Shown here: positions 1-5,300 of the stretch, one piece after another
Layout: each line of letters starts with the position of its first letter
How positions within the stretch are numbered: position 1 is the first letter of the stretch
Assembly (NCBI GenBank): GCA_003696125.1
Contig: RFHZ01000213.1
Span: 1-5,300 of the forward strand
DNA from: Nitrospinota bacterium
Lineage (GTDB): Bacteria; Tectomicrobia; Entotheonellia; J063
Reading direction: 5' to 3'
DNA: 5,300 bases
Notes under the pieces: generated by a model
The model's database searches: none
Told to the model about the DNA's origin: nothing
What the model saw: the letters and a program-made list of their open reading frames with translations, nothing else
Translations under genes and position numbers: made by a program

Positions 1-1149
1 GAGTATGCCAAGGGGTGGAGCATGGGGGAAGCCACTCCAGAGGAGTTGACGGCCATGTGTCGGTTGACGGCAGAGGCCATGGAAGACGGGGCATTTGGGG
101 TGGCCACCGCGCTGATCTATCCCCCGAACTCTTACTCCACCGATACAGAACTGGTCGAGATCGCACGAGTCGTTGCCCGCTACGGTGGGGTCTATATCAC
201 CCACATGCGCTCTGAGGGGGACCGGCTTTTGGAAAGCCTGGCCGATACCATTGCGCTGGGGCGGCAGACCGGTGTGGCGGTAGAGGTCTATCACCTGAAA
301 GCCACCGGCCAGCGTAACTGGTCCAAGATGCCGGAAGCCATTGCCATGATCGATGCCGCCCGGGCAGAAGGGGTGGATGTCGGGGCCAACATGTATCCCT
401 ATGTGGCCAGCGGTACCGGGCTGGGAGCGATTTTACCAGACTGGGCGGCGGCCGAGGGGAAGCTGGAGGAGCGCTTACACGATCCAGAGATGCGCCGTCG
501 TATACGGGAGGAGGTGCTTGCTCCAGGCAACCGGGTCCAGTTGGCCGGGGGACCGGAAGGGGTGCTGGTGGTAGGATTGCAGCATCCTGAGCATCAACCG
601 TATGTGGGGAAAACCCTGGCAGAGATCGCCACGCTGCGGGGACAGGATTGGGTCGATACGGTCTTCGATCTGGTCTGTGCCGAGGGACCCTGGGTGCATA
701 CGATGTACTTTTTGATGTCAGAAGAGAATCTCCGGCTGCAGATGCGTCAGCCCTGGATCAAGTTCGGTACCGATGCGCCTGGACTCGATCCGGCCCATCC
801 GCATCTCCTGCTCACCCATCATCCCCGGGCCTATGGGACGTATCCCCGTATCCTGGGGAAATATGTTCGGGAAGAGGGGGTGCTCACCTGGGAAGAGGCG
901 ATTCGCAAGATGACCTCGGCCGTGGCGAATCGACTACACATACGCGATCGCGGCTTACTGCGCGAGGGGTACTACGCGGATGTGGTCCTTTTTGATCCCG
1001 ATACGGTGGAGGATCGTGCCACCTTTTCCCATCCCCATCAGCTCTCTAGCGGTATCCGTGAGGTATGGGTCAACGGCCAACGGGTGCTGGCGCATGGCCA
1101 GCATACCGGGGCCCTGCCAGGCCGACCGGTCTACGGGCCGGGGAGATAA
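1..1149 (+). CDS. N-acyl-D-amino-acid deacylase (D-aminoacylase family), 5'-truncated by window edge
   Basis: This amidohydrolase-superfamily enzyme most likely hydrolyses N-acyl-D-amino acids to a carboxylate and the free D-amino acid. The frame is open from base 1, so the ATG at 22 is probably internal; 382 codons are visible, while family members usually have about 480-550. The missing N-terminus would carry the metal-binding HxH. Visible family landmarks, numbered from the first window codon, are the YITHMRSEGD block (His68), the VYHLKATG block (His98 and Lys100), NMYPYVASGTG (about 131-139), and FGTDAPG with Asp258, the usual superfamily aspartate. Then come the HPRAYGTYPRILG block and the C-terminal GLLREGYYADVVLFDP and VWVNGQRV beta-sandwich segment. 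These motifs fit D-aminoacylase better than dihydroorotase or hydantoinase, though that separation is from family knowledge. Substrate specificity (D-Asp, D-Glu or neutral) cannot be read here. The TAA stop lies 24 nt before a small ORF that may have been its operon partner. Confidence 0.9.
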   Translation, partial: EYAKGWSMGEATPEELTAMCRLTAEAMEDGAFGVATALIYPPNSYSTDTELVEIARVVARYGGVYITHMRSEGDRLLESLADTIALGRQTGVAVEVYHLKATGQRNWSKMPEAIAMIDAARAEGVDVGANMYPYVASGTGLGAILPDWAAAEGKLEERLHDPEMRRRIREEVLAPGNRVQLAGGPEGVLVVGLQHPEHQPYVGKTLAEIATLRGQDWVDTVFDLVCAEGPWVHTMYFLMSEENLRLQMRQPWIKFGTDAPGLDPAHPHLLLTHHPRAYGTYPRILGKYVREEGVLTWEEAIRKMTSAVANRLHIRDRGLLREGYYADVVLFDPDTVEDRATFSHPHQLSSGIREVWVNGQRVLAHGQHTGALPGRPVYGPGR

Positions 1150-1469: not shown

Positions 1470-2807
1470 ATGGCCAAGAAACTTTCCTCAAACAGTGGTA
1501 ATCACACCGCAACCGAACAGGAAAAGCAGAGTAAGGCGAGCATCCCGGATCATAATACCATGAACCTGGTTTCTCTGCAGGAAAAGACGGTTGCCGAACT
1601 GCATCAGATTGCCAAAGCCTTGCAGATTCCGGGCATCAGTCATCTGCGCAAGCATGAACTCATCTTCAAGATCCTCGATGCGCAAACCCAGGAAGAGGGG
1701 CTGCTCTTTGGAGAAGGGGTCCTCGAAATCCATAGTGAGGGATTTGGCTTCCTGCGTTCTCCCAAGGCCAACTATCTCCCCTGCCCGGAAGACATCTACG
1801 TCTCTCCCAGCCAGCTACGCCGCTTCGATTTGCGCACCGGGGATACGGTGACCGGCCAGATCCGTCCCCCCAAGGATGGGGAGCGGTATTTTGCCCTCCT
1901 CAAGATCCAGGCGATCAACTTCACCAATCCGGAGCAGGCCAAAGAGCGGATCCTCTTTGATAATCTCACCCCCGTCTATCCGCATAAACGGCTGCGTCTG
2001 GAACGCAGTGATGGAGACATGTCCACCCGCATCCTGGATCTGTTTACGCCGATCGGGAAGGGGCAGCGTGGATTGATCGTTGCGCCACCACGCACCGGAA
2101 AGACCATGCTGTTGCAGACCATCGCCCACAGCATCACGGCTAATCACCCGGAAGTCTTCCTGATTGTGCTCTTGATCGATGAGCGGCCGGAAGAGGTCAC
2201 GGACATGGAGCGGTCGGTCAAGGCGGAGGTCATCAGCTCCACCTTTGACGAGCCGGCAGAGCGACACGTGCAGGTGGCCGAGATGGTACTGGAAAAGGCC
2301 AAGCGGCTGGTGGAATACGGGTACGATGTGGTGATCCTGCTCGATAGCATCACCCGGCTGGCACGGGCCTATAACACCATTGTGCCCCCCAGCGGCAAGG
2401 TCCTCTCCGGGGGAGTCGATTCCAATGCCCTGCAACGGCCCAAGCGGTTCTTTGGAGCTGCCCGCCAGACGGAAGAGCGGGGAAGCCTCACCATTTTGGC
2501 CACGGCCCTGATCGAGACCGGCAGCCGGATGGATGAGGTGATCTTCGAGGAGTTTAAGGGGACGGGAAACATGGAGCTGGTGCTCGACCGTAAGCTCGCC
2601 GATCGCCGTGTCTTCCCTGCCATCGACCTGCAGAAGTCTGGGACCCGTAAAGAGGAGCTGCTCCTCAGCGAAAAAGAGCTCAACCGGGTCTGGATATTGC
2701 GTAAGGCCTTGCAGAGCCTTAATCCGCAAGAGATGCTCGAATTCCTGCTGGATAAGATGAGCCGCACCAAAACCAACGAGGAGTTCCTCAACAGCATGAA
2801 CCAGTAA
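1470..2807 (+). CDS. rho: Transcription termination factor Rho
   Basis: Rho is the hexameric RNA-dependent ATPase/helicase that loads on C-rich nascent RNA and ends transcription. The 445-residue product has the expected order. A polar Ser/Thr/Asn/Lys/Gln extension (1-30) precedes a Rho_N helical domain (about 33-70, with [12 protein letters not shown]). The cold-shock-like RNA-binding domain (about 77-150) has GFGFLRSP at 91-98 and [12 protein letters not shown] at 108-119. The ATPase core carries Walker A APPRTGKT (205-212), the catalytic-Glu block [13 protein letters not shown] (Glu238), Walker [11 protein letters not shown] (Asp292), the Q-loop PSGKVLSGG (307-315), the R-loop region FKGTGNME (362-369) and SGTRKEELL (390-398). 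Length is close to the 420-residue family norm. The start is set by the strong site at 1450-1458; the next ATG at 1560 has no such site. Walker A has RT where E. coli has KA. No rpmE or prfA neighbour is present, and no defect is seen. Confidence 0.98.
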
Positions 2808-2903: not shown

Positions 2904-4763
2904 CTACTGGTAGCGGCGAGGGCGAATCATCTGTTCTGGAGAGAGGATCTCTTCCAGCTTTTCCTTGCTGAGTATCCCTTTTTCTAGCACCAGTTCATAG
3001 ACCGAACGGCCGGTAGCCAAAGCCTCCTTGGCCAGTGCAGTCGATTGCTCATACCCCAGATAGGGGTTCAGAGCGGTTGCAAGACCGATACTCTTCTCTA
3101 CCAATGTCCGGCAATGCTTTTTATTCGCCGTGATCCCCTCAATACAACGGGTGCGGAGGGTAATACAGGCATTACGAAGCATGCTGATCGATTGGAAGAG
3201 GTTGAACGCGATGACCGGCTCCATCGCGTTTAGCTCCAACTGCCCCGCCTCTGCCGCCATCGTTACCGTCAAGTCATTCCCGATGACCTGGTACGCAACC
3301 TGGTTTACGACTTCTGGAATAACCGGATTAACTTTTCCCGGCATGATACTCGATCCGGGTTGCATGGGGGGGAGATTGATCTCATGGAATCCCCCTTGCG
3401 GACCGGAGGAGAGGAGGCGGAGATCGTTACAGATCTTTGAGAGCTTGACCGCAATGCGTTTGAGAACTCCGGAGATGAGGACAAATACCCCGGTGTCTTG
3501 GGTGGCCTCGACCAGATTAGGGGCCGTAATCAGGGGAATACCGGTGATCTCACGCAGCTTCTTACAGACCAGACGCGCGTACCGTGGATCGGTATTGATG
3601 CCGGTTCCGATTGCTGTTGCCCCCAGATTGATCTCTTTGGCCAGATCAACGGCCTCACGGAGTCGAGCCAGATCCTCTCCAATGGTGGTGCTGTAAGCAC
3701 TAAACTCCTGACCCAGCGTCATCGGCACCGCATCCTGAAGCTGAGTTCTTCCCAGCTTCAGGACATCGGCAAATTCGTCCGCCTTGGTTCGAAAGGCCAT
3801 CTGCAGTTCTGTCATCGCCTTCAGCAGGTCGTCTGCGTAACGCCGCAGGGCAATCTTGATGGCGGTTGGATAGACATCATTTGTCGATTGGGAGAGATTC
3901 ACATGGGTATTGGGATGGATGATGTGATAAGCTCCTTTGGCATGGCCGAGAATTTCCAGGGCCCGGTTCGCAATGACCTCATTGGCATTCATGTTGGTCG
4001 AAGTTCCCGCTCCTCCCTGAATGACATCGACCACAAAATATTGGTGATGCTGGCCGGCCATGATTTCATCGCAAGCCTGTACAATCGCCCTCTGAATTTC
4101 GGGAAGGAGGAGGCCGAGTTCAAAGTTGGTGAGGGCGGCCGCTTTTTTGATGGCGGCAAGAGCATAAATTAAATGGGGAAATTCTCGCAAGGGAATGCTG
4201 GTAATGGGGAAATTCTCCAAGGCCCGCATCGTCTGTATCCCATAGTAGGCTTCAATCGGGATATCTCGTGTGCCGAGGAGGTCATGCTCCTGTCGGAACC
4301 GTCCTGACAGAAAGCGGGGCTCATCGGTTTCCCATTTCGCACTTAACTCCCGCAGTTGGGCCCGTAACAACTGGCCTATCCGGAGCACAATCCTGGCAAA
4401 GGTTTCCGGTCGTTCTGTCCGGATTTCCTGGTACCGTGCTAGTGAGAGCTGGATGGTCAGCGTATCTTGGCGGGCGCGGGCAGAAGTGAAGTGCGTCGGT
4501 TCATCAAGCCAGAGTCCTTCACTCACCGTTCCTCCGGCCCGGACCACTCCAAACGACTTTACCCTTCCCCGATACCCTTTAAAGAGTTCTACTTCCCCTG
4601 CTTCAATGACATAGAAAGCTTGCCGGGGTGTGCTTTCATAAAAGAGGTATTCACCGGTCCGGTATGCCTTGCGCCTCATCTTCTGGGCGAGGTAGGCGAT
4701 CTCCTCTGGAGTCAAATGGGTAAAGAGGATACTTTCCTGCAGACGGGTAGCAATCTTCTCCAT
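2904..4763 (-). CDS. Cyclic-nucleotide-binding-domain / aspartate ammonia-lyase fusion
   Basis: The enzyme half deaminates L-aspartate to fumarate and ammonia. Of 619 residues, about 10-130 form a CRP/cNMP-binding-like unit ([10 protein letters not shown] helix, [23 protein letters not shown], then [21 protein letters not shown] at the pocket, and a C-terminal helix 117-140). A short linker leads to a complete class II fumarase/aspartase lyase from about 155 ([17 protein letters not shown]) to the end. Lyase motifs are [14 protein letters not shown] (249-262), QSTNDVYPT (292-300), [12 protein letters not shown] (338-349), AIGTGINT (384-391) and the SS-loop signature [11 protein letters not shown] (470-480). 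Gln341 in GRTQLQD, where fumarase has His, marks it as aspartase; 155-619 is nearly the usual 470-residue length. No DNA-binding helix-turn-helix is present. ATG start with GAGAGGAAAGG (4784-4774) upstream on the minus strand. It follows the M20 gene by 23 nt in a likely operon. Phosphate-binding Arg is not evident in the pocket. Confidence 0.95.
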
Positions 4764-4786
4764 ACCGACCCTGCCTTTCCTCTCGT

Positions 4787-5300
4787 TTACTTAGTGGATA
4801 AATACCGCTCTGCCAGGGCACAGTAAAATGGTATGGCCTGGAGATAGTCACTCACCACAATATACTCATCCGGCTGGTGGGCCAGCTCCGGGTGTCCCGG
4901 CCCACAGATGACAAAGGGCAGATCGCGGTTGTAACTGAAGACACTGGCGTCGGTGGCATAGCCGGGCGTGGCCTTTGCCCTCTGCTCGCGTCCCAACATC
5001 TCGGCACAGAGTTGGAGAACCGTCTGGACGATAGGGGTATCTGGTGAGGTTTCCACAGAGGGGCGGCCTGTCCGGAAGGTGATGGTGGCTTCCAGATCCT
5101 CTATGCGCTGTTTGGTTCGCGCAATAGCCTGTTCAAAGGCGTTCAGAATCGCATCGGCCGGCATGTCGGGCAGGGTACGGATATCGATACTGACCTTGCA
5201 CTGATCCGGAACGACGTTGGTCTTCACCCCTCCCTCAATCGTACCGATGTTCATCGTCGGGGTACCGAGTAAGGGGTGTGGGGTGTGGGGGAGTTGAATC
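4787..5300 (-). CDS. M20-family metallopeptidase/deacylase (ArgE/DapE/ACY1 type), 5'-truncated by window edge
   Basis: This is the C-terminal part of a zinc amidohydrolase of the M20 family, which contains acetylornithine deacetylase, succinyl-diaminopimelate desuccinylase, aminoacylase-1 and dipeptidases. The frame is open to the right edge: codons before the ATG at 5254 read HPLLGTPT, a typical family segment, so that ATG is internal. About 170 residues are visible. Numbered from the first full codon, the end of the dimerisation domain (GTIEGGVKTNVVPDQCKVSI, 19-38, then DIRTLP) is followed by the second part of the catalytic domain, with YATDAS (about 114-119) and CGPGHPELAHQPDEY (132-146). 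His141 of AHQPDE matches the conserved C-terminal zinc ligand. The N-terminal metal ligands lie outside the window, so the exact substrate cannot be assigned. The gene ends in TAA and is followed after 23 nt by the aspartase fusion, implying co-transcription and perhaps supply of aspartate from an acyl-aspartate or Asp-containing peptide. Confidence 0.92.
   Translation of the reverse strand, partial: IQLPHTPHPLLGTPTMNIGTIEGGVKTNVVPDQCKVSIDIRTLPDMPADAILNAFEQAIARTKQRIEDLEATITFRTGRPSVETSPDTPIVQTVLQLCAEMLGREQRAKATPGYATDASVFSYNRDLPFVICGPGHPELAHQPDEYIVVSDYLQAIPFYCALAERYLSTK

Follow-up and report, generated by a model that had tools for sequence, protein, structure and literature searches.

The window, that is, the whole 5,300-nucleotide stretch of DNA analysed, is one entire contig of a 990-contig assembly (95% complete, 8% contamination), with a G+C content of 0.56 compared with 0.56–0.61 in other contigs of the same genome. 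On its minus strand, a single open frame of 619 codons plus a stop runs from position 4763 to 2904, and the plus-strand reading of the same interval contains several stops. Upstream of the ATG lies a ribosome-site-like stretch (AGAGGAAAGG, 4774–4784, minus strand). The encoded protein begins with a CRP-type cyclic-nucleotide-binding-like domain (CNBD) with its C-helix (residues 1–143, 4335–4763; beta-roll approximately 30–107, C-helix 119–143), continues through a flexible linker (residues 144–154, 4302–4334) and ends in an aspartate ammonia-lyase domain (residues 155–619, 2907–4301). Pfam searches matched cNMP_binding (PF00027) at residues 32–114 (E 1.2e-9, 38.5 bits against a cut-off of 27.5), Lyase_1 (PF00206) at residues 166–495 (E 1.2e-99) and FumaraseC_C (PF10415) at residues 561–613 (E 1.9e-22). 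In NCBIfam, the aspA equivalog TIGR00839 scored 720 bits against a cut-off of 681, and fumarase and related models stayed below their own cut-offs on the fusion protein. No helix-turn-helix domain was matched in the protein by Pfam or NCBIfam, and its C-terminus is that of the lyase. The sequence-only reading had proposed, in one frame, a CRP-type beta-roll followed by a complete aspartase, without a helix-turn-helix, and had named the same three Pfam families; all of this was borne out, both halves exceeding their Pfam cut-offs and the cNMP-binding match falling within residues 1–135. An aspartase model used alone would annotate such CNBD-aspartases as plain aspartases. A separate start for the lyase was ruled out: no in-frame ATG, GTG or TTG occurs between codons 132 and 179, and thus not around residue 150, which leaves no simple way of producing the lyase by itself from its usual N-terminus.

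Directly upstream of the fusion gene, on the same strand, the C-terminal part of an M20 peptidase of the ArgE/DapE deacylase type (4787–5299, minus strand; Pfam, NCBIfam) is cut by the contig end. Its gene ends 23 bp before the fusion gene, and the two are likely co-transcribed. Convergent with the fusion gene is a complete rho (1470–2807, plus strand; 707 bits against a cut-off of 315), beyond which an amidohydrolase of the PRK09061, D-aminoacylase-like type (1–1149, plus strand) is truncated at the contig start. Aspartase connects the nitrogen of amino acids with fumarate, and several carriers of the fusion have neighbours related to aspartate supply. The divergent neighbour is a Tat-signal Asparaginase_2 in 18 of the 24 loci studied in family f181 (Pfam confirmation on one representative), a different M20 peptidase followed by Asparaginase_2 lies directly upstream of the fusion in G206, and a DcuA/DcuB transporter lies upstream in G359; other carriers have neighbours without an obvious aspartate link. 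Asparaginase PF01112 gave no match in the source genome as assembled, and the asparaginase association is therefore not available to the source organism as assembled. Taken together, the neighbours are suggestive of a role in the breakdown of aspartate derived from asparagine or peptides.

How widespread the architecture is had been left as a question by the sequence-only reading. Of 290 genomes sampled across the domain, six besides the source encode end-to-end homologues with 52–57% identity. Deeper searches detected the fusion in three of five genomes of one class, 6/80 of another class, 52/200 of one sampled phylum and 3/5 of another phylum, giving by our count 65 genomes and eight families, source included. 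The 64 other genomes, which represent seven further families and at least four other lineages, carry full-length homologues with 51–62% identity, the nearest relatives sharing 59–62% across the full length. The fusion is thus present in no fewer than five separate bacterial lineages and is common in one. All 39 aligned full-length homologues matched PF00027 (at E ≤0.001), PF00206 and PF10415, so that the fusion cannot stem from a frame error or from a chimeric contig, and a frame break between the halves is disposed of as well; a contaminant was likewise ruled out, since 64 other genomes carry the fusion, and the G+C content of the window also agrees with that of the other contigs. In the plasmid collection, no CNBD joined to a lyase was present among the matches listed; two further records, outside those matches, contain a region that spans at least 80% of the query, and one query was the G029 protein with altered first residues.

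Related lyases without a CNBD occur in Bacteroidales, in Streptomyces and in a sub-branch of family f181, and the CNBD is therefore dispensable. A Bacteroidales match (L016) beginning at residue 124 was considered as a fusion and rejected as an ordinary stand-alone aspartase with its start at 3852. The f181 sub-branch (G384, G462, G495 and others) has lyase similarities of 828–843 bits and no CNBD, an apparent secondary loss of the sensor. In a lyase-domain tree of 94 rows, all 43 fused rows fall inside one supported clade of 68 rows, mixed with unfused ones; the fused and unfused labels require six changes, four of which are forced by supported branches. Among representatives, identity is 29% in the CNBD and 61% in the lyase, so the sensor evolves fast. 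The two halves co-evolve, their distances being correlated (r 0.69, 13 representatives, Mantel p 2e-4). Because of this correlation and of the shared R47/H91 pair described below, we favour a single ancient fusion with later losses and some transfer as the simplest history. The six label changes also allow several gains, and repeated independent fusions are disfavoured, without proof, by the same two observations.

The active-site stretches of the lyase align identically with those of E. coli AspA except at the PGK/PAK position, and the superfamily catalytic (SS) loop (residues 469–480, 3324–3359, minus strand) was located by alignment to the E. coli and Bacillus aspartases. In structural alignment the lyase domain shares 53–61% identity with solved aspartases, and fold searches, which cover the lyase part only, returned aspartases for residues 154–617 with Z scores of about 51–52. 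We infer from these alignments that the lyase half would be a catalytically complete, tetrameric-type aspartase. Among the 60 solved chains listed, none holds both domains, and the lyase matches begin at residue 144 or later. An AF2 model built from a 39-row alignment (mean pLDDT 84.8) shows the beta-roll, a helix of the phosphate-binding cassette at 82–86, the C-helix at 119–143 and a low-confidence linker (140–152, pLDDT <50) before the lyase; residues 1–138 mostly have pLDDT values of 70–95. The CNBD modelled alone from one sequence reached a pLDDT of 42, and that model was discarded.

In cAMP pockets, a phosphate-binding arginine (PKA Arg209) is coupled to a glycine of the beta2–beta3 loop (PKA Gly169) (Kannan et al., PMC2246266). 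The pocket register of the fused protein was set by ungapped spacing, Tyr51/Gly56 here against Tyr173/Gly178 in PKA (PMC2246266). Within the phosphate-binding cassette (residues 79–97, 4473–4529, minus strand), the pocket glutamate is retained as Glu82 in 41/43 fused proteins, and the position of the arginine (PKA Arg209, CRP Arg82) is occupied by His91, with His in 41 of the 43 and Tyr in two near-identical proteins of family f129. By the same spacing, the loop glycine position is Arg47 (4623–4625, minus strand) in 43/43. As a control we took 28 other CNBDs from eight carrier genomes and one related genome (G004), placed in the same model alignment: neither Arg47 nor His91 occurs in any of the 28, and the canonical arginine is kept in 17/28, in these usually together with Gly at position 47. 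This difference between fused and other CNBDs indicates that the R47/H91 pair is a hallmark of the fused family and that the pocket appears to be under selection rather than decaying. Among the control CNBDs (L124–L153), a Tyr at the phosphate-arginine position is in all five cases accompanied by Cys in the coupled loop, a second linked substitution pair. Judged by residue conservation, the CNBD of the fusion is specialised and conserved, non-canonical as a cAMP pocket, and would probably respond to a small molecule other than cAMP or cGMP. The source genome (G000, 4.2 Mb) has a rich set of 14 class III cyclase matches; in searches for class III alone, no match was found in the carriers G029, G373, G511, G400 and G353 (82–100% complete).

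Since the fusion of a CNBD to an aspartase without a helix-turn-helix is widely conserved, a regulatory role for the CNBD is likely, and on balance we lean towards direct gating of the aspartase by a ligand other than cAMP. Each subunit of the tetrameric-type enzyme, which converts L-aspartate to fumarate and ammonia, would bear an N-terminal CRP-fold sensor on a short flexible linker. The sensor would have kept its fold and pocket glutamate and exchanged the Arg/Gly of the cAMP pocket for the family-specific His/Arg pair; it would most likely be occupied by a small ligand distinct from cAMP and cGMP, whose binding would directly switch the activity of the aspartase in organisms that may obtain aspartate from asparagine, aspartyl-peptides or a transporter. 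We infer gating and ligand binding from architecture and conservation, and catalysis, tetramer assembly and the sign and size of the gating are put forward as predictions of the same kind. Disorder is predicted for the linker, so mechanical coupling of the halves is not evident.

CRP-fold C-helices often dimerise, and the long C-helix of the AF2 model (119–143), together with the rapid drift of the CNBD sequence, would also suit a structural, oligomerisation or localisation module without a ligand, which may cross-link lyase tetramers or dock a partner. In NCBIfam the CNBD part most closely matches the family 2B encapsulin CBD (E 2e-6), for which a lack of cyclic-nucleotide binding is reported (PMC12407261), consistent with such a module. 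Conservation is, however, centred on the pocket-linked R47 and H91 and on Glu82, residues for which a pure scaffold would have no use, and we regard this explanation as rather unlikely. Classical gating by cAMP or cGMP would agree with the retained Glu82, the cyclases of the source genome and the precedents of cAMP-gated enzymes (PMC8556138, PMC6717892), but the phosphate-binding arginine and its coupled loop glycine are missing throughout the 43 fused proteins (PMC2246266). Together with the five carriers lacking a class III cyclase match, these replacements speak against the cAMP or cGMP sensing considered in the sequence-only reading, and we hold it to be improbable.

Aspartase is tied to fumarate respiration, and in one carrier the enzyme is accompanied by an anaerobic Dcu transporter, as might be expected if the CNBD were a heme- or metal-based redox or gas sensor through which oxygen, CO or NO controls the aspartase. 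Heme in CooA is coordinated by a histidine equivalent to PKA Arg209 (PMC2246266), the place that His91 takes here, and CooA and DNR are weakly matched by the CNBD sequence. Matches to cAMP/cGMP domains are, however, at least as good, a second axial ligand was not identified and Tyr replaces His in two members, making such a sensor very unlikely. Returning to gating by a non-cAMP ligand, a more specific version, in which Arg47/Glu82/His91 form a new pocket type that gates the aspartase in cis through a ligand newly recognised for the fold, possibly heme or a nitrogen or carbon metabolite, is offered tentatively. If true, such gating would tie amino-acid breakdown to a ligand signal in several bacterial lineages.

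Stand-alone aspartases of known structure, E. coli AspA (1JSW), Bacillus AspB (1J3U) and the Elizabethkingia enzyme (6WNG), share the whole lyase domain and the active-site motifs with the fusion, but all are without an N-terminal CNBD, in agreement with the earlier statement that the E. coli and Bacillus aspartases consist of the lyase alone. No paper on the CNBD-aspartase architecture was found in the open-access literature, and the 2007 survey of CNB families describes none of its 30 as joined to a lyase (PMC2246266). In that survey, CooA/FixK, FNR, ArcR and CBS likewise have a residue other than Arg at the PKA Arg209 position and an altered ligand, but these are transcription factors or CBS proteins, unlike the CNBD-aspartase. 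The family 2B encapsulin CBD shares with it divergent binding residues, is inserted in the E-loop of a shell protein and has no known ligand (PMC12407261).

Closer in design is mycobacterial Pat (MSMEG_5458), which likewise joins an N-terminal CNBD to a metabolic-control enzyme without a helix-turn-helix; Pat is a different enzyme and is activated by cAMP (PMC8556138), whereas the CNBD-aspartase lacks the phosphate-binding arginine. In the Bdellovibrio CNBD-EAL phosphodiesterase Bd1971, the CNBD also gates the fused enzyme (PMC6717892), but that different enzyme has a canonical P-loop, FGEMALIDNQNRSA, with the arginine, unlike the CNBD-aspartase. The CNBD-aspartase resembles Pat and Bd1971 in architecture and may resemble them in gating. 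For a sensor domain re-purposed to bind something else, the invariant replacement of the Gly and Arg of cAMP pockets is a clean and testable example, and the conserved family of about 65 genomes is a resource for finding the new ligand. Regulation of aspartase at the protein level has a precedent in E. coli, where AspA is reported to interact directly with GlnB (PII) (Schubert et al., 2021). In that case GlnB acts in trans, whereas the sensor of the CNBD-aspartase is in cis, and control of an aspartase in cis by a CRP-fold sensor would, as far as we have found, be new.
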